From a virus: a DNA stretch of 32,992 nucleotides. The DNA lies in IMG/VR virus record IMGVR_UViG_3300017744_000071, positions 1 through 32,992 of that record. The stretch is one strand, 5' to 3'. A model generated the notes under the pieces. That model was not told the origin of the DNA, searched no databases, and was given only the letters and a program-made list of their open reading frames with translations. Made by a program: the position numbers and the translations under genes. Numbering within the stretch: the first letter of the stretch is position 1; each line of letters opens with the position of its first letter. This document shows positions 1-32,992 of this stretch, in pieces.

Positions 1-20
1 CCGTATCTTGGAGCCGCCAT
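1..20 (-). CDS. 5' end of a gene running off the left edge (likely start of the PVET-repeat protein)
   Basis: An ATG at 20-18 on the minus strand opens a frame with no stop to the window edge (M-A-A-P-R-Y then partial). The ATG follows the stop of the holin-like gene after a single T (TAATATG), the same junction seen before the portal gene (10560-10556) and before tail tube A (32331-32327). A GGAAG ribosome-binding sequence lies about seven bases upstream. If position 1 is joined to position 32992 the frame runs directly into the PVET repeat protein. The start is seen; the join is inferred. Confidence 0.55.
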
Positions 21-21
21 A

Positions 22-366
22 TTACTTCTTCCAGTTAGCTAAACCACGTAGCCCAAACGAAGCCGCAACAGCAGCACCCAAGAAACCTTTGTACCACTCA
101 GGCATAGAATCTAATGCTTCAAAGCCGGACATTACTACAGGAACCATACTAGGGAAAAACGCAAGAATGCAAGGTACTGAAAACAAGATCGTAAACCACT
201 CGTCTTTCCATGAGTTAGCCGCATTGTTTGCATGTATGTTTTCCCAGTTAGCGTCCTGCTGTATAGCTACCATCTTACGCTCATGAACAGCCTTCTTCTC
301 TTCTGACTTGCGCTGAAGATGCCCACCAACAAGGTTAACAATAGGTCCAATAAGCTGTTGTATCAT
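22..366 (-). CDS. Putative holin / three-TM lysis membrane protein
   Basis: A 114-residue protein. It has a short N-terminal helix (residues 1-16), a charged middle segment rich in K, E and H, then two hydrophobic segments: about residues 57-80 (beginning after WKDEW) and about 92-109 (FLGAAVAASFGLRGL). The WKDEW / PEWYKG / AASFGLRG arrangement resembles the small 3TM holin-like proteins of marine podoviruses and the GTA-holin family. A holin would form inner-membrane lesions that release the endolysin. Its ATG overlaps the preceding stop (ATGA) and an AGGA sequence precedes it, so it is coupled to the gene at 363-710. A single-purpose structural membrane protein cannot be excluded. Confidence 0.55.
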   Translation of the reverse strand: MIQQLIGPIVNLVGGHLQRKSEEKKAVHERKMVAIQQDANWENIHANNAANSWKDEWFTILFSVPCILAFFPSMVPVVMSGFEALDSMPEWYKGFLGAAVAASFGLRGLANWKK

Positions 367-710
367 TCTGTATCCTGATCCCAGAGAGCTTCGATAGTTC
401 CAATACGAATTGTTAACTCGTGAACCTCTTCTTCTATCTGACGTAAACCAACAACATCAATCTGAATACTTTCAATCATCATGTCTTGTCGAGCGTCGTC
501 AGGTAAAGACCCAAGCTCTCCACGAGGCCATAAGATACGAAACTCAGTGTTACGTTCTATTTCCAGTTGTGACTTGTCAAAAGAATGCTCAATAGTATTA
601 AGACGCTCTTGAATACCGAAGTAAGCCATAGTGGCAATAGACGTAGCCGCAACCATAGCAATCAAGTTACGAATAGGTATAGTCACATTTGTTGACTCAT
701 TGATATCCAT
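363..710 (-). CDS. Small single-TM protein with coiled coil, lysis cassette neighbour
   Basis: A 115-residue protein with a hydrophobic segment at about residues 14-31 (IRNLIAMVAATSIATMAYF), followed by a long charged, helix-prone region with heptad-like spacing. An ILWPRGELGSLPDD motif lies near residue 60, and I recall similar motifs in unnamed marine phage proteins. The topology (short cytoplasmic N terminus, one membrane anchor, periplasmic coiled coil) would suit a spanin-like or holin-accessory role, but no spanin partner or lipobox is visible. It sits between two other small membrane proteins and is translationally coupled to the downstream holin-like gene. The function is unassigned. 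Confidence 0.6.
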   Translation of the reverse strand: MDINESTNVTIPIRNLIAMVAATSIATMAYFGIQERLNTIEHSFDKSQLEIERNTEFRILWPRGELGSLPDDARQDMMIESIQIDVVGLRQIEEEVHELTIRIGTIEALWDQDTE

Positions 711-712
711 AG

Positions 713-910
713 CTACCTAGCAAACTCTAAGATAGCAACAGCAACAACTATGATTACAGAGATAGACGCAAACCCACCCTGCATCATCTTCTCCAGCCTA
801 TCAAAGCGTCTGTTATGTTCATCAAGCTGTAGCTGGATCATCTGATACCGTAAGGCACACTCAGCTTCATGTTTGTCTAAACGTGCTAATGCGTCATCTA
901 CAGAATTCAT
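713..910 (-). CDS. Small coiled-coil protein with C-terminal TM anchor
   Basis: A 65-residue protein. Residues 1-42 are charged and helical (DALARLDKHEAE, RFDRLEKMM), and residues 46-63 form one hydrophobic helix (FASISVIIVVAVAILEF). This tail-anchored layout resembles small XhlA/hemolysin-like phage proteins. An AAGGA ribosome-binding site lies eight bases before the ATG. Together with the two following genes it makes a three-gene membrane cassette after the tail fibres, consistent with lysis control. The family is not identified with certainty. Confidence 0.6.
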   Translation of the reverse strand: MNSVDDALARLDKHEAECALRYQMIQLQLDEHNRRFDRLEKMMQGGFASISVIIVVAVAILEFAR

Positions 911-930
911 ACCGACTTCCTTTTATTGGT

Positions 931-1260
931 TTACCAAGGTACGCCGTCAGCAGTAGTTGGGTTCTTGTCTGCTTCAATCTTAGCCGCTAGAGCCGCCTCA
1001 GTAGCGTCCTGATCGACAGTCTCCCATACCCAACCTAAGACATCAGCCTCAGTTAAGTCAGCATAGGCAATGTAGTCAGGTGCAGTAGGGTCTGGTGTAA
1101 AACCTACAGTACCATAAGAGGATGCAGAGTAAGTAACAGCGTCGTCACCCTCGCCTACAGTTTCTGAATCAGTAGCCCGCCAGTGTGCAACGACTACTGC
1201 GCCGTCCATGTCTGCTGGTTGAATGTCACGCTCAAGTGTTGCAATAGTCCATGTAGCCAT
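931..1260 (-). CDS. Small tail-fibre-associated protein, unknown function
   Basis: A 109-residue acidic protein with beta-rich character (WTIATLERDI, VVVAHWRATD, GTVGFTPDP) and a helical C-terminal part ending NPTTADGVPW. I recognise this pattern as common next to tail fibres in marine phages, but no activity is known to me. Its ATG overlaps the stop of the fibre gene by one base (TAATG), so it should be made in proportion to the fibre. It may be a fibre cap, a fibre assembly factor or a minor virion protein. Confidence 0.65.
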   Translation of the reverse strand: MATWTIATLERDIQPADMDGAVVVAHWRATDSETVGEGDDAVTYSASSYGTVGFTPDPTAPDYIAYADLTEADVLGWVWETVDQDATEAALAAKIEADKNPTTADGVPW

Positions 1261-3683
1261 TAGTTAGTCTCCAATTGTGCAACTCTGGCACGTAGTGATT
1301 GAATTTCTTTTACAAGCATAGGTACTAGCTTCGAGTAGTCTACGCCCATCATTTCTTCTTCGGTTGCGCCTTCAGACACAGCCTCTGGTGCAACGCTCTG
1401 TAGCTCCTGAGCAACCATGCCGTACTTCTGGTGTGAACCGTCAACCTTCCAGTCAAACGAACGTACTTGGATAGCGTCAATGTCGTCAGAAGCAGAAGGT
1501 GCATCTACGATGTTTTCTTTGAGGCGTTGGTCTGAGGACGTAAGGTAGTTAGTTGAAGTCCCAGCGGTATTAATTCTACCAACATTTCCGTTTGGGCTAT
1601 AAAACGCAATCACGTTGGCTGTGCTAGTCGTATCGTTTTCTATATTTATGCGACCTTCAGTTCCTGATACCTGTACACAGTCGTTTGAACCAGCAAAACT
1701 AAATGAAGAAGCACCAACCAGCAAGTTGCTTGATGCGTCTATGCGTGCGGCTTCGGCAGAAACATTGCCTTCAGGATAAAACGCAATGAAGTTAGAACTA
1801 GCGGCTATAGTAGGGTTGCCGCCACCATAAGTACCTCCCCAACTTATATTGCCTCCATCACCTAACTCAACACTGCCTGACAGGTGAAGGTCTTTGAAGC
1901 GGGCGTTTTCGTGACCTAAGTCAGTTGCGGCATCACTGATTGCTAATGAATTTACATCAAAAGGAACAATAGCGTTCAAGCCTGCATATTCAAAACGCAA
2001 TCCTGAGTCGTTTGTACCAATGTGCAAGTCACCGCCAAATGCACCAATACTACCGACCTTAGCACGGTCTTTATAAAATTCTGTAAACGCTCCGTCAGCA
2101 TTTTCACGATTAATATATTGCGCTACGGCACCGCTAGTTCCATCTATACTCTGATTGGATTGACCGTTAGCATAAAAGTTAAAGCCGTACCTGTCCGCAC
2201 CACCAAAAACATTTTCTGTCGTGCCTAAAAGCAACTGACCATTAGAATCGATGCGCATGCGTTCTGTGTTGTTAGTCTCAAACGTTATAGGATTAGCTAA
2301 AAAGTTTTGGATTCTTAAAGCATCGTTGCCGTCATCATAAGCAACAGTTGAAACTCTTGTGCTTGCGCTATTCTCAAAGTTCAACATAGCGCCTGCTGTG
2401 CCGCCTTTTAGCTCTAGCACTCGCCAGTTAGCAAACGCAGTTGGCGCTTGTCCAATACCAACATTCCCACTAGAGTCGATACGCATGCGTTCTGTGTTGT
2501 TAGTACCAAAAGTCAGGGCGTTGTTGCTTCGGTTAAACAAAGAAACATTAGTTCCGGCGTACAACTCCATCGTGTCGCCGCTGGTAGCTTCTAGCCAAAT
2601 ACGAGCGTCGGAAGTGTCTGCAACGTGTAAATCAGCAGAAGCATTTGGGCTAATGCCAATACCAACATTGCCTGCGCTAGATATGCGCATGCGTTCAGTA
2701 CCAGCTGTACGAAACTTCATTAAATTAGTATCAAAATCTATAGAAGTATCGGCATCACCGTTATGAATAATAGATTGTCCTACATATAAATCTGTTGAGA
2801 CAGTTACGTGAGAATTAAATATTGCACCGCCAAAATCTGACATATCAAGAGTGAGGGCTGTGATGGTTGAGCCGCCATCATTGCCTTTAAATAGAATGTC
2901 TCCGTCTGAAATTGCGCTTGAAACAACAAAATTATTAGATGACTTATAGAGGTTAGCAAACCTAGTGCCACCGTCATCAAATTTTACTTCTCCACCATCA
3001 ACATCGAGGATAATGTTACCTGCAACGTCTAGTGTTAGGTCGCCAGAACTTACATCTATTTCATTACCATCTATTGTGATGTTGTCTACAGTAATACCAC
3101 CGTCAGCATCTAAGACACCATTGTTTATTGAAACTCCACTAGAATTTGCAAGTAACTTTCGTGAACCACCAACTACTAAACCAATATTGTCATCAGCAGG
3201 AAAATAAATACCAGAGTTTGAATCACCTGCATTAGTTATACTTGGAGCAGAAGTAGACCCATCAGATACTGTGACGGTGCCAGTTACGTCGATGCCTGTG
3301 TTTGTTGTGTTTAATTTTTCAGCACCGTTGTAATAAAGCTGTACCTCACCATCATTCTGACCCAAGAACATTTTGTTCCCGTCACCATCAGTAATTCTGA
3401 CGTTAGCTTCGCCTTGAATATATAAATCGCCAGTACCAGCATCTTTAAGATAGCTATTAGAACCATCATGATAAATCTGTAGGTCAGAGCCAGCACCGAA
3501 GATAGCCTTACGGTTGTCAGCAAAGGTTACGTCTACGCCGGGGTTGGTACCTACTTCGATAACATTGCCGCCTGAGTCCTCTGTGTACAGACGCTTGTTA
3601 GTCAGATCTAATGCGGGTTCACCTTGAACAAGATCACCACCCGCAGGAGCGCCAGAGCCGTTCTTAAGTTTAATCGTGGTCAT
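1260..3683 (-). CDS. Tail fibre/spike with C-terminal intramolecular chaperone (Peptidase S74)
   Basis: An 807-residue protein. The N terminus (IKLKNGSGAPAGGDLVQGEPALD) is the usual start of fibre proteins in this group. The body is beta-rich, Asn/Gly/Ser/Asp-rich, with several related strand motifs of the form TERMRIDSSGNVGIG (coding about 2240-2270, 2470-2500 and 2670-2700), as expected for a trimeric beta-helix shaft. The last 90 or so residues contain SDQRLKENI, SFDWK, HQKYGMVAQEL and APEAV, the signature of the endosialidase chaperone domain that drives trimer folding and then cleaves itself off. A terminal coiled coil (LVKEIQSLRARVAQLE) follows. It is the likely host-recognition fibre. 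Its start overlaps the upstream fibre stop (TAATG). Confidence 0.9.
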   Translation of the reverse strand: MTTIKLKNGSGAPAGGDLVQGEPALDLTNKRLYTEDSGGNVIEVGTNPGVDVTFADNRKAIFGAGSDLQIYHDGSNSYLKDAGTGDLYIQGEANVRITDGDGNKMFLGQNDGEVQLYYNGAEKLNTTNTGIDVTGTVTVSDGSTSAPSITNAGDSNSGIYFPADDNIGLVVGGSRKLLANSSGVSINNGVLDADGGITVDNITIDGNEIDVSSGDLTLDVAGNIILDVDGGEVKFDDGGTRFANLYKSSNNFVVSSAISDGDILFKGNDGGSTITALTLDMSDFGGAIFNSHVTVSTDLYVGQSIIHNGDADTSIDFDTNLMKFRTAGTERMRISSAGNVGIGISPNASADLHVADTSDARIWLEATSGDTMELYAGTNVSLFNRSNNALTFGTNNTERMRIDSSGNVGIGQAPTAFANWRVLELKGGTAGAMLNFENSASTRVSTVAYDDGNDALRIQNFLANPITFETNNTERMRIDSNGQLLLGTTENVFGGADRYGFNFYANGQSNQSIDGTSGAVAQYINRENADGAFTEFYKDRAKVGSIGAFGGDLHIGTNDSGLRFEYAGLNAIVPFDVNSLAISDAATDLGHENARFKDLHLSGSVELGDGGNISWGGTYGGGNPTIAASSNFIAFYPEGNVSAEAARIDASSNLLVGASSFSFAGSNDCVQVSGTEGRINIENDTTSTANVIAFYSPNGNVGRINTAGTSTNYLTSSDQRLKENIVDAPSASDDIDAIQVRSFDWKVDGSHQKYGMVAQELQSVAPEAVSEGATEEEMMGVDYSKLVPMLVKEIQSLRARVAQLETN

Positions 3684-5209
3684 TAATAAGTTCCCCCGTC
3701 AATTGTTGACAGTGTAGTAGTAATAGAAGTTGTCCCTGAGCCTGTAACTGCTCCAGACAGCGTAATCGTTTGGTTGCCCGTAAGGTAGCTTTGCAAGTCA
3801 CTAATTTGTGACTCAGTAACCGACAGTGCCGCTTGGTGTTGTGTTACCGAAGACTGCGTAATGTTAGCGTTCGGTATGTTAGCCCATGTTACTGCTGTAG
3901 ACAGGTCATTAGTTTCAGTAAAGCTAGTTAAGTACCCTGCACTAGCATGATTACCCCAGCCGTGTGCTGTGTCAGCCTTAGCGCCCTGTGCCGCAGTAGC
4001 GTAGTCAGTAGAGTCAAAGGCCTTAACCTGTGCAAGGTTAGTAACCTCTGAGTCCATCAATGCACCAGCGGCTGTAACATTGGCTGTGTCGGTTACGTCT
4101 GCTGAGGCTTCAATTGCATTTAGTTTACTGTGATCTGCGTCCGTAAAAACATTGGAGTCTGTCGCCGCTTCTACTGCGGCTCTAATCTCTGCGTCAGTCT
4201 GGTCAGCAGTAGCACCGGCTTCTATAGCATTTAACTTGCTGTGGTCCGCATCAGTAAAAACATTAGAATCAGAGGCAGACTCTACAAGCGTACGTATCTC
4301 TGCGGCTGTTTGATCTGCCGTAGCACTAGCCTCAACACCATCAAGCTTAGTACCGTCAGCGGCTACGTCCCTACCGTCTACTGTTCCTGACAGAACTACA
4401 TTGCCAGTAATGTTGACGTTACCTGTACCTGTAATGTCTCTACTGTTTAAGTCTAAGTTGCCACCCAGTTGTGGGCTAGTGTCACCAACAAGATTAGGAT
4501 TAATTGAATCCCAAGCACTTCCTGTGTAAATTCTAGTGCTGTTGTCGCTTGTGTTAAAGTACCAGTCACCGGTAGTAACAGCATTGCCGTTTAGGTCTAC
4601 TGTAGGGTTACTTGACTGTGCACCAAGGTACAAACCGTCAATAGCGTCCTGAGCAGCCTCTGCAGCCGTCTTAGCGGCTTCTGCAGCCGTTTGTGCTGTT
4701 TGTGCTGCTGTAGCACTAGTGGCTGCGTTTGTGGCTGAGGTGGACGCTGAGGAGGCGCTAGAGGCAGCATTGGTTGCTGACGTAGCTGCTTCACTAGCCT
4801 TAGTAGTAGCTGTGGTAGCTGAAGCAGTAGCATTAGTCTCCGCAGTCTCTGCATTAGTCTCTGCTGTTTCTGCTGCTGTCTTAGCAACCTCTGCTGCGGA
4901 CTGTGCAGTGTCAGCGGCTGTCTTAGCTGTTTCTGCAGATACCTTAGCCGCTACTGCAGCATTCTCTGCTGTCTCTGCGTTAGTCTCTGCAGTTTCTGCA
5001 TTGGTTTCTGCAGTTTCTGCATTAGTTTCTGCTGTCTCTGCAGCAGCCTGTGCAACCTCTGCAGCAGCTTGTGCGTTAGCCGCAGACGTAGCAGACGCTG
5101 CAGCTTCATTTGCTTTTGTAGAGGCTCTGGTTGCTTCTAGGGCTACTTCAGACGCATAGGTGTCTGTACTAGCATCCCCGGAACCACCTGTGCCACGAAA
5201 TAAAGCCAT
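3683..5209 (-). CDS. Tail fibre protein with Ala-rich coiled-coil shaft
   Basis: A 508-residue protein starting at the ATG at 5209 (MALFRGTG). An AGGAG site six bases upstream favours this over the TTG one codon earlier. Residues 20-190 are almost all A, T, E, N and K in seven-residue periods (ETAETNA), predicted as a long coiled coil. Residues 195-260 contain PTVDLNGNAVTTGDWYFNTS, a typical fibre segment. Two repeats of about 40 residues follow, each with TDADHSKLNAIEA and ATADQT. The C terminus is STIDGGTY. The likely role is a virion-proximal or shaft fibre that the S74 fibre binds. It is separated from the capsid gene by a terminator, so expression is expected to be below that of the capsid. 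Confidence 0.85.
   Translation of the reverse strand: MALFRGTGGSGDASTDTYASEVALEATRASTKANEAAASATSAANAQAAAEVAQAAAETAETNAETAETNAETAETNAETAENAAVAAKVSAETAKTAADTAQSAAEVAKTAAETAETNAETAETNATASATTATTKASEAATSATNAASSASSASTSATNAATSATAAQTAQTAAEAAKTAAEAAQDAIDGLYLGAQSSNPTVDLNGNAVTTGDWYFNTSDNSTRIYTGSAWDSINPNLVGDTSPQLGGNLDLNSRDITGTGNVNITGNVVLSGTVDGRDVAADGTKLDGVEASATADQTAAEIRTLVESASDSNVFTDADHSKLNAIEAGATADQTDAEIRAAVEAATDSNVFTDADHSKLNAIEASADVTDTANVTAAGALMDSEVTNLAQVKAFDSTDYATAAQGAKADTAHGWGNHASAGYLTSFTETNDLSTAVTWANIPNANITQSSVTQHQAALSVTESQISDLQSYLTGNQTITLSGAVTGSGTTSITTTLSTIDGGTY
4961..5041 (-). repeat. Heptad-coding tandem repeat (ETAETNA) inside the tail-fibre gene
   Basis: About four direct 21-base units encode consecutive ETAETNA heptads. 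A second partial block with the same coding lies at about 4829-4873. Units differ mainly at third codon positions. The array explains the long antisense reading frame on the plus strand across 4719-5159, which is Ala/Val/Ser-rich and is a shadow. Confidence 0.8.
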
Positions 5210-5221
5210 CAAAAGCTCCTA

Positions 5222-23572: not shown

Positions 23573-23597
23573 AGGGGCCTTAGCGCCCCTTTTCTTT
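23573..23597 (+). terminator. Rho-independent terminator ending the rightward operon
   Basis: AGGGGC (23573-23578), loop CTTAGC, GCCCCT (23585-23590), then TTTTCTTT. It lies six bases after the RNR stop. In the leftward direction the same hairpin is not followed by a T run, so it should mainly stop rightward transcription. The stop codon of the leftward gene at 23580 lies inside the loop. Confidence 0.85.
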
Positions 23598-25214
23598 ATC
23601 CTCTTGTTGACCCCTAAGACCAACACCAGCGCCGGTAGTTAACATACCTGCGGACCTTATTCTTTCACCTTTAACAACTTTAGGATCAGCCTTTATTCCC
23701 GCTATTCTCTGTACAAGCTCTGTATAAGACTCTGTCATTTCATCTTTTGCAGGGACTTTAACTTTTCTAGCAAGCTTCATCGCGTCTTCACTAGCCGCGT
23801 TAAAGATCATAGGCGGTGTAGCGTTTACCATTCGATTAGGCAGTGCTTTTTCTACCGCTTTACCTACTCCCGGCACATTCTCAAGGAAATTGTTTTCGTC
23901 TGAGACAACCGTAGTTACTCTACCATTAGGCGCTAGCTTACCTACATAATTAACACCACCTTCAGTAATTGCAGTGCCTTGCAGTGAACCAGTAAAGTAG
24001 AAACCTCCGTTCTTTTTGGCATTCTCTAGTATCTCTTCATCCGTCTTACCCATCTTAGGGTGTAAGGTAAGTTTAGGCGAGTCTTTAAATTTAGCTAGTA
24101 TAGTCTCATTACTAGGATTTTTACTGTTCTTATAAAGAGTAGCAAAGGTTCTTACAGGTCCTTTGTGTGCAAAGTCAAAAGCGTGGTTTCCTGTTTGGTT
24201 TGTTGTAGGAGTCTTTATGTTTATCTTAGGTGCCGCAGCGTCTGCAAACTTTTCTGCTCCTTCTCCTTTACCTACTTTCCATACTTCTCCTATGTGCTCT
24301 TCAAAAAAGTCAAGGTCTCTTTGGGGTGTACTGTTTCTTGCCCCTACTTGTTTTACAAGATCAGAGTAAACACCGGGACGGAAGGTAGCAGTCTCAGACA
24401 TGTAGCTGATTCTATCGACAGTATCAAGAGCAGGATCAACAGGGCCTTCTCTGCCTAGTCGTGTGTTAGTGACAATATTCTGTTGCCCTTGAGAAACAGC
24501 CTTAGATAAGTCTCTTTGTGAACCCTGAGATAATTCTTGTGCTACATCTCTTGTTGTTGGGTTGACACCTGTACTGTAATATAAGGCACGACTGTCAGGG
24601 TCCATTAAGTTAAATAAACCTTTCTTTGTACCTTCTCCTGCCCATTTAGCAAAGTCCTGTACTTTCATCCTGCCTTGCATTACTTCTTCAGGAGTTTTTG
24701 CACCTTTGACTGCGTTCGCTACCGCAGGACCTACTTTAGGGACCTTTCTTGCTTTGTCTGCAAAAGCCTGTGGATCTCTAGCTACGTAGTTATCAAACCT
24801 ATTTGGCACAGCGTCCTTAGGAATGTCGGTAGGCCCATAGAAGTTAGGGATGTAGTTTTCAGGAGAACTCAAGAATAAACCAGCATTCTCTTTAGCCCTG
24901 TTTAGATTGGGAAGCGCCTCTTGTGTTATCTGAGCGCCTTTACGCATCATCCCAAGACCGCCCAAGGGAACGTAGTTAGCAGGGGTGAGTGCTTCTTCAG
25001 CAATAAAGTTAGCAGGAGCCATAGCGTCAACTGTGGTTCTTCGGGGGGCCGACATAGGTATCCCCTCTGATCCAGCGTACACAGGCAACTCTAGAGAACC
25101 AAAAGGGTTTTTAATAGCAGGATTAAGGAAAGCGCTTGTAGCCTGTTTGCTATACTCTCGTGCTTTAGGCCCTGCTCTTAGAGCCTTACGAAGCTCAAAG
25201 ATGTCATTGCTCAT
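23580..25214 (-). CDS. Large virion-associated protein, possible internal/ejection protein
   Basis: Start chosen at ATG 25214 (MSNDIFELRKALRAG), with GAGGAG seven bases upstream and a short overlap with the preceding gene. The 544-residue product is basic, with no membrane helix and no catalytic signature I can read. Segments such as NRFDNYVARDPQAFADKARKV, LFNLMDPDSRALYYSTGV and GVEKALPN-like stretches resemble the long, poorly conserved last genes of podovirus structural operons. The order after tail tube proteins suggests an ejectosome or internal virion protein. It is last in the late operon, converging on the RNR gene. Confidence 0.5.
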   Translation of the reverse strand: MSNDIFELRKALRAGPKAREYSKQATSAFLNPAIKNPFGSLELPVYAGSEGIPMSAPRRTTVDAMAPANFIAEEALTPANYVPLGGLGMMRKGAQITQEALPNLNRAKENAGLFLSSPENYIPNFYGPTDIPKDAVPNRFDNYVARDPQAFADKARKVPKVGPAVANAVKGAKTPEEVMQGRMKVQDFAKWAGEGTKKGLFNLMDPDSRALYYSTGVNPTTRDVAQELSQGSQRDLSKAVSQGQQNIVTNTRLGREGPVDPALDTVDRISYMSETATFRPGVYSDLVKQVGARNSTPQRDLDFFEEHIGEVWKVGKGEGAEKFADAAAPKINIKTPTTNQTGNHAFDFAHKGPVRTFATLYKNSKNPSNETILAKFKDSPKLTLHPKMGKTDEEILENAKKNGGFYFTGSLQGTAITEGGVNYVGKLAPNGRVTTVVSDENNFLENVPGVGKAVEKALPNRMVNATPPMIFNAASEDAMKLARKVKVPAKDEMTESYTELVQRIAGIKADPKVVKGERIRSAGMLTTGAGVGLRGQQEDKEKGR

Positions 25215-26811
25215 TCTCAGGCTCCTCGTTGATGTTCGCAAGCATTTGAGCCAGCATAACTTTATCAGCCCTTAGTGTAGCCATTGTTTCTGCTGTTACG
25301 TTAGCGCCCTGAATCATTTTGTCAGTAGCCCCTAATAACTCTCTGACAACTGCTTGTCTTCGTCTTTTACGAGTCATACGAGCCAAGCCCATTGCCGCTG
25401 CTCCTCCGCCAATAGCCGCACCTAATACCGGCATACCCCCCAATGCAGCACCGCCAGCAGCAGCAGTAGCACCAAGGGCTAAAGGAGTAGTTGGAAACCG
25501 GAGACCAGAGAAGTCCTCAATACCTTTTACTGTACGTCCTAACATAGTCTGATTAATGGCTTTACCTGCTTTAACGTCTAGTAAACCCTTAGCTCTAAAC
25601 AGCATAGACATGCCGTTAATAAGCCTGTAAGCTTCGTCGTCAGGCATCAACTTAAGAAATGCTTGGTTTAACTCGTCCCTTACGTACTTACCTGCTACTT
25701 CTTTTGCTCCTGCTAAATCAGGGTTCTCAAGACCTGCTGAGGGTTTCTTACGAAAAATCTTTTTGTCTAGCGCACGGCGAACCTCGAGGATGTCCCTAGC
25801 TGTAATTGTGCCGTTTTTAGCCGCCCTTTCTTCAAGCCTTTTAACAGCCGTGTCAATAAACTTATCTACCTGTTTTTGTGCTCCGTCCATTAACTCAACG
25901 TATTCATCAAGATCATGGAACCCAGCCTTGAGATCTTCTAGAGAAGTAGCTAAAGTTTGTACTTGTGTCTTAGGGTTCTTAGACCTTCTAATGTAAAGCT
26001 GAAGATCAGCCTCGTGTCTAGCCAACTGGCTGTCCACAACTTTTGCATTTACAGCAGGGTTACGATCACCTTTGTAGTCTGGTAGAGTGTCCAGATAATC
26101 AATCACTATTTCTTCAGAAGGAGAGTGCATGTACACGTTACGATTCATAGCCCCTACAGGCTCTATAGTACCCGGAGCTTTAACGTAGTCTTCCGGTAGT
26201 AGGCTGTCTGCTATGGCTTTACGCTCTTCTGATAAGCGAGATTCTGTAGCTCTTTTAGTAGCCTCAACTGTTGCTGATCTAGGAACTCCCGGAACTTTAG
26301 GTAGTGCCATCTTAGCACCAGCACCTGCAATATTCAAAGCAGCTTCAGCAGTAGTAGCCGCCTCTGGGTACTGTTGCGCTAATGCACCTACCTTTTCCAT
26401 GCCGCTTTGTAACATAGAGCCTTCGTACGCTTCAGATATACCACGTTGTACAGGCTCAGGAGTATACCTACGGTAGGCTTCTCCTGCTACTTCGCCTAAT
26501 GTTTCTCCAGCAGCGCCTACACCAGCAGCAATGCTAGTACCAACACGGAATTTACCGGGGAGTTGCTCCATGTCTCCAGCAAGACCTCTGTAACGCTCAC
26601 GAGTCTCTTTGAATCGCTCTGGTGTTTCTTCTACCATACCCCTCATGCTTTCAGGCTCACGAGGACGTGGGGGAGTTACAGTAAAAGTTTCTCCTCCGAC
26701 AACACCAATAACTTCTCCTGTTTGTGGATTAGTAGCTGTTTTGAGAGGCAACCATTGTTCACCGTCCCAATACACTTTTTTGCCTGTTTGTGGATTAGTT
26801 GCTGTCTGCAT
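25204..26811 (-). CDS. Probable internal virion/ejection protein with Gly/Ala membrane-like segment
   Basis: A 535-residue protein. The N terminus carries two copies of TATNPQTG (residues 3-10 and 25-32), spaced by KKVYWDGEQWLPLK, which looks like a small domain repeat. Long charged helices follow. Near residues 440-480 lies a Gly/Ala-rich hydrophobic stretch (LALGATAAAGGAALGG, VLGAAIGGGAAAMGLA) of the glycine-zipper kind, then RKRRRQ. Such segments are typical of proteins ejected to build a channel across the host envelope (as T7 gp14-16). This is inference; no enzyme motif is visible. Confidence 0.5.
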   Translation of the reverse strand: MQTATNPQTGKKVYWDGEQWLPLKTATNPQTGEVIGVVGGETFTVTPPRPREPESMRGMVEETPERFKETRERYRGLAGDMEQLPGKFRVGTSIAAGVGAAGETLGEVAGEAYRRYTPEPVQRGISEAYEGSMLQSGMEKVGALAQQYPEAATTAEAALNIAGAGAKMALPKVPGVPRSATVEATKRATESRLSEERKAIADSLLPEDYVKAPGTIEPVGAMNRNVYMHSPSEEIVIDYLDTLPDYKGDRNPAVNAKVVDSQLARHEADLQLYIRRSKNPKTQVQTLATSLEDLKAGFHDLDEYVELMDGAQKQVDKFIDTAVKRLEERAAKNGTITARDILEVRRALDKKIFRKKPSAGLENPDLAGAKEVAGKYVRDELNQAFLKLMPDDEAYRLINGMSMLFRAKGLLDVKAGKAINQTMLGRTVKGIEDFSGLRFPTTPLALGATAAAGGAALGGMPVLGAAIGGGAAAMGLARMTRKRRRQAVVRELLGATDKMIQGANVTAETMATLRADKVMLAQMLANINEEPENEQ

Positions 26812-26813
26812 GA

Positions 26814-28073
26814 TTATTGATCCAATTCAAAACCTTCGGGAAGTACTGCTTCTGCTTCTTCTCTTTTTTCTGGCATAGTTATGCTTGGGAAGCTCGTCAT
26901 GTTTTGTTCACCTACCCGTTTTGCGGTGGCGGTTCTAACATTGTTAAAGTTTTCTACAGTCTTAACCATAGCGTTTCGTCGAATGTTTAACAAACTAAAC
27001 AAAGCTTCCTGTTGTGTTGTAATGTCCGCAGCAGCAATCAACTTAGCGTACTCTCTATCCGCATCTGACAAACCCGTACCCGAACCGAAGTCTTTGATCT
27101 GGTCAGCAACGATTTTACCTGCTTCAGAAATAAAGGTTTCAGCGTTTGTAACTGCGGGATCGTAAGGCAGTCCAATAAGCTCACCAAAACGCCTTAAATT
27201 AAGCTCCATATTGGCCGCAAGACCCGTAGGCATACCGCCTTCTAAACGCCCTGTTTGTCTGTCAATTAACTCAATCATGTTACGAGCGTCTTGTGCTTTA
27301 GTATTAAGCTCAACAAAATTAGTAACATTGGCTTCTGCCATTGCCTTAGCGCCAACTTCTTGTCCTTTGTCAATAACTTCTTGAACTTGTGGAGCCTTGC
27401 GTACCAACTGAAGATCACTAGCTTTAACGTACGTGTTAGTCTGATCGTTATAGACTAAACCAAAGTCGTTTACGTTGACAGCTTTGATGTTGCCTTCTGC
27501 GTCCTGCCAAGCTTCTAGTTTACCTGTGCGTCCTTTAAGTAAATCGTCTGCTTCTTCTTTAGAAAGAGGGCCTAGAGCAGTAATTTGAGCAATAGTAAAC
27601 CCAGCCATTCTTAGTTTTGCTTTAATAACGGCAGGATTGTCTAAAGGAAGCTGTTCAATTTGAAACTCTCGAATGTCTTCACTAATACTTCTAAGCTCTT
27701 GCATGTCCGTAGTAGCTCGTGCTGTTGCTGCTTGTTCTACAAGACCAGCACTTTCTGCTGCAACTGCTACCTTTTCTCGAAAATCATTTATTTGCTTTTG
27801 TTCTGCTTGTTGTGCCCCTAATGTTCTAGCAGCAGAAGCGTACTTAACAGCATTGCCCATGTCGCCTTGAGTTTGGTAATAACTCGCTAGACCACCAAGG
27901 CCCTCAACAGTGTTAGGATCAAAAGCAGATAACTGCCTCTTTTTTTCTTTTTCTTGTTCTATAGCAACGGCTGTCGTAGGAGCTTGTCCAATGCGTTGCC
28001 CAACTTGAAAAAGATTTTGGGCGTATCCCGGTCTCATCATAGACTGTAGAAACCCTTGTGAATAAGTAGCCAT
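26814..28073 (-). CDS. Probable internal virion protein, helical
   Basis: A 419-residue protein, mostly helical and charged. It starts MATYSQGFLQSMMRPGYAQ, a start style common to internal virion proteins of this group. Residues 330-400 include IVADQIKDFGSGTGLSDADRE and YAKLIAAADIT, then helices to an acidic C terminus (VLPEGFELDQ). GSGTGLSDxDRxxA is a motif I associate with phage DNA-transfer proteins. An AAGGAG site, overlapping the preceding stop, lies six bases before the ATG. Confidence 0.55.
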   Translation of the reverse strand: MATYSQGFLQSMMRPGYAQNLFQVGQRIGQAPTTAVAIEQEKEKKRQLSAFDPNTVEGLGGLASYYQTQGDMGNAVKYASAARTLGAQQAEQKQINDFREKVAVAAESAGLVEQAATARATTDMQELRSISEDIREFQIEQLPLDNPAVIKAKLRMAGFTIAQITALGPLSKEEADDLLKGRTGKLEAWQDAEGNIKAVNVNDFGLVYNDQTNTYVKASDLQLVRKAPQVQEVIDKGQEVGAKAMAEANVTNFVELNTKAQDARNMIELIDRQTGRLEGGMPTGLAANMELNLRRFGELIGLPYDPAVTNAETFISEAGKIVADQIKDFGSGTGLSDADREYAKLIAAADITTQQEALFSLLNIRRNAMVKTVENFNNVRTATAKRVGEQNMTSFPSITMPEKREEAEAVLPEGFELDQ

Positions 28074-28083
28074 TAGTTACTCC

Positions 28084-29916
28084 TTAAGTAAAAATCTCGC
28101 CTAGTGCTTCATACAAAGGATTACTTTCGGAAGGCGCTAATACACCTCCTAATAATCCCGTACCAAGTTGACCAAACAACTCTGCTTGTCCAAGACCTGA
28201 ACCAAGCAACGCCTGTAGTCCACCCATTTCTGCTTGGCCGTACAAACCAGCGCCTTGTAGCTGACCGCGTTGAGCCAGTTCTGCTCCCGGCATAGCTGCT
28301 TGTAGTACGTTAAGAGCTTGTGCCTGTGGCAAGTAAGCCGTACCAAGAGCACCTGTGCCAAGCTGTTGTTGCAACTGTTGTAACCCAAGACCACCGCTTA
28401 ACAAACCTTGACCTGCGGTTAACGCCTGTAGTCCCTGCTGTTGTCTTGCCGCATCTAAAGCTTGCTGTTGTCCTGCTAAAGTTGCGCCTAAACCAGCAAA
28501 CTGAGAACCAAGTCCTGCCTGTTGAGCCTGAAGACCTCCTGCAGTCTGTGCCAATTGAGCAGCCTGACCAGCAGCAGTAGTAGCTCTTCCAAGACCTTCT
28601 GACTGTAACCTTGATTGTACTTGCTCTGCGGACAGCCCAAGCTGTGCAAGCTGTGTAGCTCGTTGTTGTGCTTGGGACTGTAAAGCAGACTGCGCTTGTT
28701 GCGCTTGTAAACCTGCGCCAGCCATTTGCATTTGACGTCCAAAGCCTTCGGACTCAAGCTGTGCTTGAACACGCTCCGCAGAAAGACCAAGTTGTGATAA
28801 CTGAGAAGCTCTTTGTTGTGCTTGAGATTGTAGTTGACTTGACAAACCAGCTTGCTGCGTAAACATACCACCAAGGGCTTGAGCTTCGCCCAAAGCTCTC
28901 TGACGTTCCGTACCTGCTTGTTGTATAGCAGATAAAGATGCTCTATTACGTGCTTCTTCTTGGGCTGTAGCCATAGCCAACTGCTCTGGTGTAGCACCAC
29001 CATAAGCTGCTGAACGTGTACCAAGTCGTCCTTGTGCGGCTAATCGTTGTTCTAGAGCTAAACGCTGACGTTCTTCTTCAGGACGTTGAGTAGCACGTAT
29101 ACGCTCAAATACTTCTGCTTCTCGTGCGCCTGTAGGTTGCATTACTTGTTGTGCCGCTTGACCTGCTAGACCGCCGTACTGTTGTCGTAAGGCTTCTACG
29201 TCTGTGGGGGCCGTAGTAGCAAGCCCTTCCATACCTAAACCCAAACCTCTTGAAGCTAAAGCACCGGCACCGGTACGAACACCGGGGTCTTGTATACCTG
29301 AGTAAGTTTGAGTTACGTCAGGAGCACCACCAGACAACCCTGCGCCGCCTAAGCCTAACGCTTGCTGACCCAAAGCACCTATGCCAGCACTAGGCTGTTG
29401 ACCCATGAGTCCACCAACTTGTCCTGCAAATTGTCCACGAAGTAAGTTAATGTCCGCAGGTTGCATTCCAGCAGCACCCATAAACTGACCACCTAGTCCA
29501 AAGGCTTGCTGTGCAGCAGCTTGGGTAGGAGCCATGCCAAACGTAGGCTGACCCATTAGTTGCTGTCCTGCACCAAGAGCACCAAGGCCAGCCTGAGTTA
29601 ACTGAGGTTGTCCTGCTACAGGTTGTCCAAACATTTGACCTGCTTGGCCCATAAGTTGTTGACTAATGGCTTGTTCTTGTGGAGACAAAGCTACGCCAAG
29701 TCCTCCTTCAGGAGTTGTTGTAAGCGCACCGCCAGTACCTGTTGTTACAGTAAAAGGTCTAAACTGTGTTTGCTCTAGTTGTTGTTGAGCTAAAGCACTT
29801 CCTCCTTCACGGGCTTGTTCACCAATTTGACCAAGGCGTTGATAAGCCTCTCCGGTAAGAAGACCACCAGCAGCAGCAACACCGCCTAGACCTAATAACT
29901 GAGCTAATTCACTCAT
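28084..29916 (-). CDS. Gln/Gly/Ala-rich repeat protein, probable virion structural protein
   Basis: A 610-residue protein dominated by Q, G, A and L. After a hydrophobic start (LAQLLGLGGVAAAGGLLTG), residues 100-250 repeat GLGG/AQQ/LMGQ motifs, and residues 370-460 hold two copies of a roughly 55-residue unit with QSQAQQRA, QLGLSAE, VQxxLxSEG and FGRQ/LGRA. The low complexity produces open frames on the other strand and in other frames (for example 28488-29024), which are shadows. It is probably a helical rod-like internal or tail component. Its ATG overlaps the preceding stop (TAATG). No enzymatic motif is visible. Confidence 0.55.
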   Translation of the reverse strand: MSELAQLLGLGGVAAAGGLLTGEAYQRLGQIGEQAREGGSALAQQQLEQTQFRPFTVTTGTGGALTTTPEGGLGVALSPQEQAISQQLMGQAGQMFGQPVAGQPQLTQAGLGALGAGQQLMGQPTFGMAPTQAAAQQAFGLGGQFMGAAGMQPADINLLRGQFAGQVGGLMGQQPSAGIGALGQQALGLGGAGLSGGAPDVTQTYSGIQDPGVRTGAGALASRGLGLGMEGLATTAPTDVEALRQQYGGLAGQAAQQVMQPTGAREAEVFERIRATQRPEEERQRLALEQRLAAQGRLGTRSAAYGGATPEQLAMATAQEEARNRASLSAIQQAGTERQRALGEAQALGGMFTQQAGLSSQLQSQAQQRASQLSQLGLSAERVQAQLESEGFGRQMQMAGAGLQAQQAQSALQSQAQQRATQLAQLGLSAEQVQSRLQSEGLGRATTAAGQAAQLAQTAGGLQAQQAGLGSQFAGLGATLAGQQQALDAARQQQGLQALTAGQGLLSGGLGLQQLQQQLGTGALGTAYLPQAQALNVLQAAMPGAELAQRGQLQGAGLYGQAEMGGLQALLGSGLGQAELFGQLGTGLLGGVLAPSESNPLYEALGEIFT

Positions 29917-30149
29917 TAGTACGTACCTCCATCAATTGTCCCTGTTGACAGCGTACCGTTAAACGTCAATGCAGGTATTGTTACTGTGCCTGTAAAGGTT
30001 GGTGAAGCAATGTCTGCTTTAGTAGCAACGGCTGTTGATATAGAATCAAATTCTGTTTCAAACTCTGCGCCTTTAATGATTTTACCGCTGTCACCGGAAG
30101 GTAGACTGTCTTTAGCGGCAAAGTCAGTAGTCTTTGTATAGTTACTCAT
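29916..30149 (-). CDS. Short fibre-like tail protein (77 residues)
   Basis: The product is MSNYTKTTDFAAKDSLPSGD, then KIIKGAEFETEFDSISTAVATK and ASPTFTGTVTIPALTF, ending GTIDGGTY. ASPTFTGTVT is the short beta repeat of tail-fibre shafts, and the N terminus is a common start of marine phage fibre proteins. It looks like a complete minimal fibre or an N-terminal attachment domain on its own. Its last six residues match those of the 508-residue fibre at 3683-5209. It is coupled on both sides (ATGA and TAATG). Confidence 0.7.
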   Translation of the reverse strand: MSNYTKTTDFAAKDSLPSGDSGKIIKGAEFETEFDSISTAVATKADIASPTFTGTVTIPALTFNGTLSTGTIDGGTY

Positions 30150-31672
30150 AGTACTTTACCCATTAGTGCTAACACGTTGATCTCTTGGAGAGACAAACCA
30201 GAACCGTCTATGTCTGCTTCCAACCCAATAGTTATAATCCCACCACCGCCTGTAGCGTTGATGCCTCTTCGTGACGTAAGGTCGCCACCTGTAAATTCTA
30301 CCGTAGTGTTATATTCACTCTCGTTGAAATAACCAGCTACTTGACTACCCACTGTAAACTCTGCTGTCTGAAAAAACGTGCCAAAGTCATAAGACCATTT
30401 AAGGAACACGACGGAACTATTAGCTCCGACAATTGTAGGTCTAAGTTTTTTAAGTATCTTAAGACGCGAAGGGTCTCCAAAAGTAAGGCCGGGGCTGTAG
30501 TATTTAAAACGATAGGGTTCTCCGTTATCGTCGTAACCAGAGTACGTACTGATTCCGTTACCGTTTCCAATAAGCACTGTACCGTCTTCTTTTCTGCCGT
30601 AAGACGTAAAACCAGTTCCGGGCCAACGCGTAACACGGTAAGACCCATTTTCTAAAGTTCCACGAACGTCGAAACAAAACGTAGAGTTTTGCGCTGTAAA
30701 AGTTATTAAGTAAAAACCTTCCTCTGGACTATATAAGGTTCTATAAAATTCTGTTTCGTTTTGTAGTAAACCAATTATATCTTTAGTTACGTTATTGGAC
30801 AAACTACCAAGAGGCATTGACTTTTCTTGTATTGTTCTACCAAAGCTCTTTAGGCCTGTGTGAGACAAAAATAATACATCAGTGCCGGTGTACTGTACAG
30901 TATCACGGTCAACACAACCAACTCCTGCTACAGTGTCTGCTAAAGCCATTGTTGCAGGAGCTTCAGCCCCAGAGTAAGCAACAATACTGTGTTTACCGAA
31001 TATAATTAATAAACCATTGTGTGCTGCTAACGCTACAATTTCGTCATGACCGTCAGGCCATACTTTAGAAATGTCAATAGAACCACTAGTACCACCGGAC
31101 CAGTCGTGGCCTATTAAAAGATCAGACCAATAGATGGTAGACTTGTTAGCACCAAAGTCAGCCGTCCAAAGCCTCCCATAGGCCGCTAAGACTTCGTTAC
31201 CGTACATAGTACTAGTAACACCAGCCGCACCAGAAACGCTACTGAGCGTGACTACAGAGCCTCCTGCGTTGTCATAGACTAAAGGCTGAAGGCTACGCTG
31301 AAAGAAATAGATCTTGTCGTTGAAATTAACCATCTTCCAGTTGTCAGCATTTATTGTGTAGCTACCGGGAGTTTCGTCAGCTAGTGTTGTCGTGCCGCTA
31401 AGAATCTTATTGTTACCCACAGAAAAAATCTTGGAGTTACCGGCATCATCCTGAAACTCTTTGATTGCTCTAATCTTTGCAGAGCCAAGTTCTGTTTTGT
31501 TCGTGGTAATTACGGTGTGACCTTTACGAGACGCAATACGTCCACGCTTGTCAATGACTGCGTTATCTGCAACATCAGCAAACGAAGGGTCTTGTGCTAA
31601 CGGAGAATCTTCCGTGTTAACCCCTTTAAAGGCCGGTGCAACAAGATTAATACTTTGTAACTGTTGAGCCAT
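30146..31672 (-). CDS. Tail tubular protein B-like (nozzle) protein
   Basis: A 508-residue beta-rich protein: FKGVNTEDSPLAQDPSFADVADN, then DKRGRIASRKGH near the start, DEIVALAAHNGLLIIFGKHSI, DVLFLSHTGLKSFGR and later NATGGGGIITIG. Repeated strand-turn units over residues 40-400 suggest a beta-propeller, as in T7 gp12 and P22 gp10. It directly follows the tail tube A gene, the T7 order. It would form the lower part of the short tail. A GAGGT site precedes the ATG. Confidence 0.7.
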   Translation of the reverse strand: MAQQLQSINLVAPAFKGVNTEDSPLAQDPSFADVADNAVIDKRGRIASRKGHTVITTNKTELGSAKIRAIKEFQDDAGNSKIFSVGNNKILSGTTTLADETPGSYTINADNWKMVNFNDKIYFFQRSLQPLVYDNAGGSVVTLSSVSGAAGVTSTMYGNEVLAAYGRLWTADFGANKSTIYWSDLLIGHDWSGGTSGSIDISKVWPDGHDEIVALAAHNGLLIIFGKHSIVAYSGAEAPATMALADTVAGVGCVDRDTVQYTGTDVLFLSHTGLKSFGRTIQEKSMPLGSLSNNVTKDIIGLLQNETEFYRTLYSPEEGFYLITFTAQNSTFCFDVRGTLENGSYRVTRWPGTGFTSYGRKEDGTVLIGNGNGISTYSGYDDNGEPYRFKYYSPGLTFGDPSRLKILKKLRPTIVGANSSVVFLKWSYDFGTFFQTAEFTVGSQVAGYFNESEYNTTVEFTGGDLTSRRGINATGGGGIITIGLEADIDGSGLSLQEINVLALMGKVL

Positions 31673-31679
31673 AACTACC

Positions 31680-32327
31680 TCACGGAGTATAGAAGATTAC
31701 TTCTTCTGGATGCTTTTGAGCGTCTAGTGCAATAGCGTCAGACAAATAACGATCAGCAATAGCAAAGTATTCAGGAGCAGAAGTACCGCCTGTTTCTCCA
31801 CGTTCACGGGCCAACAACGCAATAGCCAAATGAATTACAGGCATTGAAGGAACAGTTAATTGATCATCATTAGCAGACAAATCAGCCCCACGCTTTACAC
31901 AGTTAAACCGTATTGTGTACGCTTTGTCAGGAATTGGATAGATATCAATCTGAGTATCACCACTACTATCAATACCGTTATACGTGTAGTAAGTAGGCGC
32001 ACTTTTGCGAGCATCAGAAATCAAGTAAGCTTCGTCAAAAAATGTTGCCGTTTGGTACTCCATAAACAAATTAGCAGTATCGTTAATAACGTTTAAGGCT
32101 TTAATCCTGTTTTGACTACCAGTCAGTACGTAGTTAAAAACATCAGCAGTAGTTGTAATAGTCAGTGTAGTACGTAACGCTGACCAGTCCCAAGAATCTT
32201 CTACTGTTCTTTTTGCATCGTTAACAAAGTCACCTACCATTTTACTGTAGGTGCTTGAAGCAACAGAAGTTACTTCCTCTTCTCGCATCCTTCGCAGGAC
32301 ATTGTTTACTATGTTTAAATATGTCAT
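31680..32327 (-). CDS. Tail tubular protein A-like (adaptor) protein
   Basis: A 215-residue protein with FVNDAKRTVEDSWDWSALRTT (about residues 33-53), IDIYPIPDKAYTIRFNCVKR and VIHLAIALLARERGE, the pattern of T7 gp11-type tail tube A proteins. Its dodecamer links portal to the tail nozzle. It starts one base after the stop of the PVET-repeat gene (TAATATG) and ends eight bases before tail tube B. Confidence 0.85.
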   Translation of the reverse strand: MTYLNIVNNVLRRMREEEVTSVASSTYSKMVGDFVNDAKRTVEDSWDWSALRTTLTITTTADVFNYVLTGSQNRIKALNVINDTANLFMEYQTATFFDEAYLISDARKSAPTYYTYNGIDSSGDTQIDIYPIPDKAYTIRFNCVKRGADLSANDDQLTVPSMPVIHLAIALLARERGETGGTSAPEYFAIADRYLSDAIALDAQKHPEEVIFYTP

Positions 32328-32328
32328 A

Positions 32329-32992
32329 TTACTTTAATCCAAATAGGCTGCGTTGAATAAGAGCGTCTAATTCCGCTACATAGTCCTTTTTAGGTACAAC
32401 AACTTGTCTATATTGAGGTGTTTGGTACGGAATAGAAAATTGCCCAACACCGTCTAATTGAGGTGCTGAAGGTGCCATCATTCCTCCACCTAGTCCCTCT
32501 AAACCACCTCCATCTCCGTCTCCGTCACCATCTCCAGTACCGTCTCCACTACCTGCTCCATCGCCAGCCCCTGTTCCTTCTCCAGTTCCTTCTGTGCCAG
32601 TCTCGTCAACACCTGTTTCTGGTTCTTGTGCAGGTTGCTCTGCTCCTGTTTCTTCCGGAGTAGCTTCGGCTTCCGGGGCAGGTTCTGCAGGAGTCTCTAC
32701 TGGTGTTTCTACTGGTGTTTCTACTGGTGTTTCTACTGGAGTTTCTACTGGAGTTTCTACTGGAGTTTCTACTGGAGTTTCTACTGGAGTTTCTACTGGA
32801 GTCTCTACTGGAGTTTCTACTGGAGTCTCTACCGGAGTTTCTACTGGAGTTTCTACTGGTGTTTCTACTGGAGTTTCTACTGGAGTCTCTACCGGAGTTT
32901 CTACTGGTGTTTCTACCGGAGTTTCTACTGGTGTTTCTACCGGAGTTTCTACTGGTGTTTCTACCGGAGTTTCTACTGGTGTTTCTACCGGA
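32329..32992 (-). CDS. PVET-repeat protein, 3' part (start not in this stretch)
   Basis: An open frame of 221 complete codons running off the right edge and ending TAA at 32329. Order from the edge: about 25 copies of PVET, a mixed acidic/proline part ([18 protein letters not shown]), a Gly/Asp-rich stretch ([21 protein letters not shown]), then a folded-looking C terminus ([20 protein letters not shown], then [16 protein letters not shown]). It is strongly acidic, extended and probably unstructured except at its ends. It sits between lysis and tail tube genes if the ends are joined, so a virion-attached flexible stalk or a length-determining linker is possible. If joined, the whole gene would have 228 codons including the stop, with its ATG at position 20. 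Confidence 0.75.
32690..32992 (-). repeat. Tandem 12-base repeat coding PVET, about 25 copies, continues past the edge
   Basis: Units such as CCAGTAGAAACT are tandem for about 300 bases. All units encode PVET; differences are almost all at third codon positions (GGT/GGA/CCG-type changes on the plus strand). From about 32891 to the edge the units alternate in a 24-base higher-order repeat (at least four copies). Confidence 0.95.

Follow-up and report, generated by a model that had tools for sequence, protein, structure and literature searches.

The gene that directly precedes the head-tail adaptor gene in these phages is swapped at a fixed locus, both as a whole gene and module by module. This is the main phenomenon here, and it was invisible to the preliminary description, which had dwelt on a (PVET)n array within the gene. 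That description was right in spirit, in that it proposed an extended, variable and possibly exposed protein, and wrong in emphasis, since PVET is one of many interchangeable repeats. We named the product HVP, for hypervariable protein. The window, meaning the whole stretch of DNA that was analysed, is an entire IMG/VR contig of 32,992 bases, and both of its ends fall within the HVP gene. The following features are concerned:

1..20, minus strand: first HVP codons (MAAPRYG...), from the window sequence compared with L087:3913-3932 (blastn, 95.3% over window 1-1541)
22..366, minus strand: gene directly upstream of HVP in circular order, for a small, probably membrane, holin-like protein of 114 aa (PHROG 2524, function unassigned)
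30146..31672, minus strand: nozzle-like or tail structural protein downstream of the adaptor (PHROG 5107, 3287 and 578)
31680..32327, minus strand: head-tail adaptor of the SU10_adaptor family (Pfam PF24175, 2e-14; PHROG 10775, tail protein)
32329..32991, minus strand: C-terminal 220 codons of HVP with the stop codon (intact homologue at L087:3913-6750)
32332..32475, minus strand: conserved C-terminal tail ([35 protein letters not shown]), with a motif common to 51 distinct tails and adaptor-linked in 38/38
32476..32691, minus strand: acidic Gly/Asp-rich linker between the array and the C-tail (PAEP...GTGDGDGDG...GGGMM, from the translation)
32692..32991, minus strand: (PVET)25 array with a 12-bp unit, cut by the contig end
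32896..32991, minus strand: four copies of a 24-bp dimer (CCG GTA GAA ACA / CCA GTA GAA ACT) at the contig edge

The intact homologue was found in a contig of 14,222 bp, L087, which matches the window with 97.3% identity at 27837-32992 and 95.3% at 1-1541. A single intact gene of 945 codons (L087:3913-6750, 945 aa) separates these two matching stretches in L087. The best reading is that the window is a circularly permuted genome from which about 2.15 kb of the HVP interior is missing, assuming the length of the L087 gene. A second record, G009 (34,999 bp), likewise starts and stops inside the HVP gene. The 114-aa gene is 100% identical in L087, where it also lies directly before HVP, and its product may act as a holin. 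In the inferred circular order, HVP is flanked by small membrane-protein (holin-like) genes on one side and by the adaptor and nozzle genes on the other, which agrees with its earlier placement between lysis and tail genes. The adaptor gene starts one base past the HVP stop codon, and its product matches PF24175 with 54.9 bits against a cut-off of 27, over positions 1-181 of the 194 in the model. The nozzle-like protein is a distant match to HMO-2011-type tail structure proteins.

Elsewhere in the window, there are two ordinary tail-fibre genes (3683-5212 and 1260-3683), adjoined by the gene for a DUF7936 protein (934-1260, minus strand; PF25590, 7.6e-24). The middle of the Peptidase_S74 tail fibre (1541-2837, minus strand) is unlike that of L087, with the start and end conserved. 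A second variable stretch (23580-28073, minus strand) holds p419, p535 and p553, which diverge from L087 after 27837. These are likely ejection or internal virion proteins, and tblastn gave no match for them in G003.

The adaptor search of IMG/VR led to 592 relatives, 80 of which were kept. Where enough of it lies on the contig, the gene before the adaptor encodes an acidic, usually large protein of low complexity and changing sequence, with repeats such as (PVET)n, (EP)n, (PVEP)n, (TPAE)n, (DTT)n, (PQPE)n, GD, collagen and Cys-rich units. L003 and L021 are 95.4% identical over the 1206 bp upstream and 93.6% identical over the 2256 bp downstream; the breakpoints are the start and stop codons of HVP, and the two HVPs (608 and 779 aa) have no detectable similarity. 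The same whole-ORF swap was seen again in L028/L031, L026/L033 and L042/L046. Across 223 pairs whose adaptors are 90-95% identical, HVP has a median alignable fraction of 0, while adaptor and nozzle are fully alignable. The 330 bp upstream are unalignable in 66% of these pairs, and the island therefore often takes in the small gene before HVP. In pairs with 95-100% identical adaptors, the upstream DNA is conserved (median 96%) and HVP is mostly unalignable in half. Modules are exchanged as well: four contigs with 100% identical adaptors have HVPs of 386-481 aa that agree in their first 28 and last 40 residues but have different middles, collagen-like in one and made of GD repeats in others.

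Different HVP alleles are present within one metagenome, for example in L010 and L020, whose adaptors are 96% identical. A diversity-generating retroelement would bring a reverse transcriptase and a template repeat close by, with A-to-N mutagenesis of a C-terminal variable repeat. No reverse transcriptase was seen among the ORFs scanned, which were part of the set, and it is whole bodies that are swapped, with the HVP C-terminus conserved. Gene content that differs between near-identical flanks also defines the metaviromic islands, hypervariable host-recognition genes of marine phages (Mizuno 2014, PMC3909814). As in those islands, the gene varies between near-identical phages and its alleles co-occur in a single metagenome. 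Unlike them, the HVP locus consists of one defined ORF, whose product is extremely acidic, contains low-complexity repeats and keeps its C-terminal tail, and most of the alleles tested gave no lectin, C1q or tail-fibre match.

The array that had drawn attention to the gene is real. A single period-12 array was found by TRF at 32690-32992 (25.2 copies, score 480), and its lag-12 self-match score is 151, whereas none of 100 Markov shuffles exceeded 11. On the minus strand, the ORF at 32329-32991, open at the contig edge, contains 25 perfect PVET units followed by PAEP. The 24 or more units counted earlier are thus present, with 24 a mere lower bound, as the array runs past the record; because the assembly break cuts the array, the copy number in the window is itself a lower bound. 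Only three of the 12 unit positions vary, each of them a synonymous third codon base (A/G for P, A/G for E and A/T for T, with GTA for V throughout), and variation at the first and second codon positions is zero, confirming that the DNA varies at third codon positions while PVET is kept. The synonymous share of single changes in the unit is 10/36 and the probability of three out of three about 0.02, a figure that is only suggestive because the units share ancestry and are not independent. Within the window, this pattern would suggest selection on the PVET peptide. The earlier claim of a selected PVET peptide does not extend to the relatives, which swap in PVEP, PAET, PVDT, EP, DTT, TTG and others; judged from their sequences, it is composition that is kept among them and not the exact PVET. 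The 24-base pattern had been taken for a recent expansion. Its four copies are present at the edge; since the dimer is absent from L087 and the assembly ends at it, it is either recent or an artefact of the assembly stopping there.

The arrays turn over faster than their flanks. L083 and L085, with flanks 95% identical, have 33 units (23 PVET) and 31 units (17 PVET), respectively, by counts from metagenome assemblies of unstated read type that may be wrong, and their unit barcodes differ by whole-unit gain, loss and change. Most unit barcodes of the window are unlike those of L087, at 97% flank identity. Unit arrangement thus differs between close relatives, in support of the preliminary description. 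On the same kind of count, (TTG)n has 39 copies in L135, 40 in L136 and 26 in L130. For whole-unit changes, the likening to phase-variable proteins fails in the on/off sense: because the unit is 12 bp, whole-unit gain or loss never shifts the frame, and the frame is intact in the arrays read. Length tuning by copy-number change, also proposed earlier, would be a possible function.

Could such arrays be ordinary low-complexity repeat expansion compounded by assembly artefact, with no functional meaning? Tandem repeats are badly handled by metagenome assemblies, and in a collection-wide scan 8 of the 13 viral contigs with a four-unit PVET array carry it in unrelated proteins. We nevertheless consider this highly improbable, as in-frame repeats of the same acidic character occur in the same place across independent assemblies, between conserved flanks and with a conserved C-tail.

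Three properties do not change with the body, namely the C-tail, its linkage to the adaptor gene and the acidity. With the C-tail as sole query, 38 loci were retrieved from the viral collection, and in all of them the adaptor gene is next, mostly with a 4-bp overlap or a 1-bp gap between the HVP stop and the adaptor start. The 51 distinct versions of the C-tail share a common motif. The conserved tail consists of a Gly-rich linker, a Y/P/Q segment and a helix-like DYxxELDxLIxR segment. The pI is 4.05-4.25 in 49/49 intact HVPs, all of which have either Cys-rich modules or repeats of the kinds (PVET)n, (PVEP)n, (EP)n, (DTT)n, GD or collagen. Their length ranges from 230 to 1291 aa (median 881), with either 0-2 or 28-70 cysteines per protein; the acidic, Pro/Thr-rich extended segment described earlier was borne out. 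The linkage between C-tail and adaptor gene is the strongest hint that the C-tail may serve the virion neck or tail. C-tail class did not co-vary with adaptor residues, and tails of different classes pair with adaptors that differ at 2-3 residues; the partner of the C-tail may therefore not be the adaptor.

The conserved tail also bears on two alternatives. HVP could be an early or late protein outside the virion, for instance an exchangeable anti-defence or decoy factor, for which co-translation with the adaptor would reflect operon position only. Accessory cassettes are typically replaced as whole genes in a fixed slot, and the strong acidity recalls DNA-mimic proteins. We regard this as distinctly unlikely, because a conserved C-terminal tail is not usual in such cassettes, and here the tail motif persists in otherwise unrelated proteins with the adaptor gene always next. 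Tight coupling to the adaptor gene and C-tail conservation would also suit a factor in assembly, either a chaperone or a scaffold, that helps to attach the adaptor or tail; its C-tail would be the functional part, and its body, having no sequence constraint beyond acidity, would drift and be swapped neutrally. Such neutral drift fails to explain the large bodies (median 881 aa), the globular domains A and B, the collagen or the 28-70 cysteines, and this role is very unlikely.

After an N-terminus containing (KAPT)n, the HVP of L087 continues with domain A, which spans residues about 125-400 and includes a Gly/Ala-rich hydrophobic stretch. Next come a long acidic region and the array (27 PVET and one PVDT), and the GD linker leads into the C-tail. 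By comparison with L087, the protein of the window, where this part is missing, would also contain domain A. Identity of domain A to other relatives is 24-56%; no Pfam or PHROG match was obtained for it, its structure model is weak (pLDDT 60.7) and the fold search matched no known fold. The L087 HVP as a whole, a near-complete stand-in for the window protein, gave no Pfam domain, no named PHROG and no homology to known tail-fibre or receptor-binding domains. Collagen is found only in some relatives (L069, L122 and L130) and not in the L087 protein; the collagen repeats (PF01391, 8e-16 and 9e-13) also match phage tail-fibre families in some HVPs. Collagen modules are usual in exposed fibres. 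DUF4214 modules were likewise found in some HVPs.

Other modules were observed among the relatives. Domain B (L006:2476-3081 and relatives), of about 200 aa with the signature IPGLDIPLPPGxVDITW, precedes numerous EGF-like repeats rich in Cys, together with (EP)n. It had no Pfam, PHROG or usable fold match, and a pLDDT of 75 was reached in just one of five models. L135:177-3734 combines a DUF4214 N-terminus with a domain A-like region. A short motif, [KRG]GM[LFM], lies near the N-terminus of many HVPs (RRPITGMFT, KKGMMTG) and again at or before the C-tail (GGGMF, KKGMFDV, KPGMLV). The matches of the window ORF to TrAA12 (Pfam) and PHROG 10432/815 fall on the GD-rich linker, that to TrAA12 below the cut-off, and were set aside as low-complexity matches. 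A spanin-like role, considered for a Pro-rich protein beside holin-like genes, was dropped, with no signal or lipobox visible by eye at the start of the L087 protein and a size far too large.

The explanation we favour, with a little short of even confidence, is that HVP is a C-terminally anchored, extended and swappable appendage of the virion, probably facing the host or the environment. The C-tail would most likely serve as an anchor in the neck or tail region of the virion and the Pro/Glu/Thr-rich body would reach outward, carrying the variable modules (collagen, DUF4214, Cys-rich repeats, domain A or B) along its length or at the distal end. In this modular HVP, whose gene occupies a fixed position immediately ahead of that for the adaptor, the PVET array would then be an extended acidic spacer. 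Recombination within the conserved genes on either side would replace the whole ORF or internal modules, and the repeat arrays would grow and shrink in frame. The phage would probably gain a varied virion display, for adsorption or for surface glycan or decoy contacts, that leaves the tail machine untouched, with host recognition presumably the trait under selection. The adaptor of phage SU10 includes a domain at which long tail fibres dock (PMC9509320), and HVP may use such a dock. Against the appendage explanation, the upstream gene is unalignable in about two thirds of the 90-95% pairs, which means that swapping is not confined to HVP, and the window already has two ordinary tail-fibre genes. 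A further-reaching version, possible although doubtful, is an appendage class that keeps only a C-terminal docking tail and its physics (acidity and an extended Pro/Gly-rich chain), the body being an exchangeable cassette of repeats and modules; this would amount to a swappable, length-tunable acidic brush or stalk.

An internal virion protein that is ejected would vary with the host as well, its unfolded acidic chain threading through the tail to act in the envelope or cytoplasm of the host. An extended, Pro-rich chain is suited to threading, domain A has its Gly/Ala-rich hydrophobic stretch, and variation is also seen in the products of the downstream genes p419, p535 and p553, which are likely to be ejected. 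HVP is nonetheless encoded upstream of the adaptor, away from the presumed ejection genes; the HVPs of L003 and L078, with C-terminal parts near that of the window, lack a hydrophobic segment (KD19 maximum 0.68 and 0.59), and collagen and Cys-rich modules are unusual in ejected proteins. We consider this rival unlikely.

As an appendage, HVP can be compared with several known systems. Some HVPs share collagen repeats with collagen-like phage tail fibres. Phage fibres are usually anchored N-terminally and variable at the C-terminus, whereas HVP has the reverse polarity, with a conserved C-terminus. The T4 protein Hoc is a C-terminally anchored capsid decoration with an exposed N-terminal part and a dispensable surface function. 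HVP as proposed would resemble it in its C-terminal anchor and exposed N-terminal part; unlike Hoc, it gave no Ig or capsid-binding domain match, and its gene sits with the tail adaptor. The Pro-Glu rods of TonB-type proteins are extended acidic rods, to which (EP)n and (PVEP)n are alike as a physical analogy only, HVP having no TonB domain match. In Borg elements, fast-evolving in-frame repeats in the DNA yield perfect repeats at the amino-acid level; these are commonly disordered, and the proteins that contain them are often extracellular (PMC9879509). HVP arrays are similarly in-frame and fast-evolving, unlike Borg repeats in that the latter belong to archaeal extrachromosomal elements and to different proteins.

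HVP is absent from the cultured phages of the collections that were searched. The carrier would be an uncultivated lineage of short-tailed phages. Neither HVP (L087, L010 and L111) nor the adaptor had a tblastn match among 50,697 phage records. Distant cultured kin were found only for portal, capsid, nozzle and terminase, at <60% and mostly 24-36% identity, and include HMO-2011-type and filamentous-cyanobacterial phages; the tail-gene surroundings of CRP-207 and HTVC104P contain no obvious HVP counterpart by position and size. Against prokaryote genomes, the domain A alignment gave nothing, and the adaptor alignment matched one Sphingobacteriales MAG contig (56%, L111) and Methylophaga MAG contigs (36%). 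In L111, an acidic protein of 602 aa without phage matches precedes the distant adaptor. L111 could hint at a host or at a wider family, the adaptor matches in MAGs being too few for a host call. No published description of this phenomenon was found in the part of the literature that was searched.

If the appendage explanation is true, widespread uncultivated phages would alter much of their outward face through one gene while keeping a tail of 40 residues. The breaking of these genomes' assemblies at the HVP gene, seen in the ends of both the window and G009, would be given a reason. The C-tail and adaptor together would provide a sequence handle to find and type such variable parts in metagenomes, and selection on chemistry (acidic, extended) would be separable from selection on sequence.
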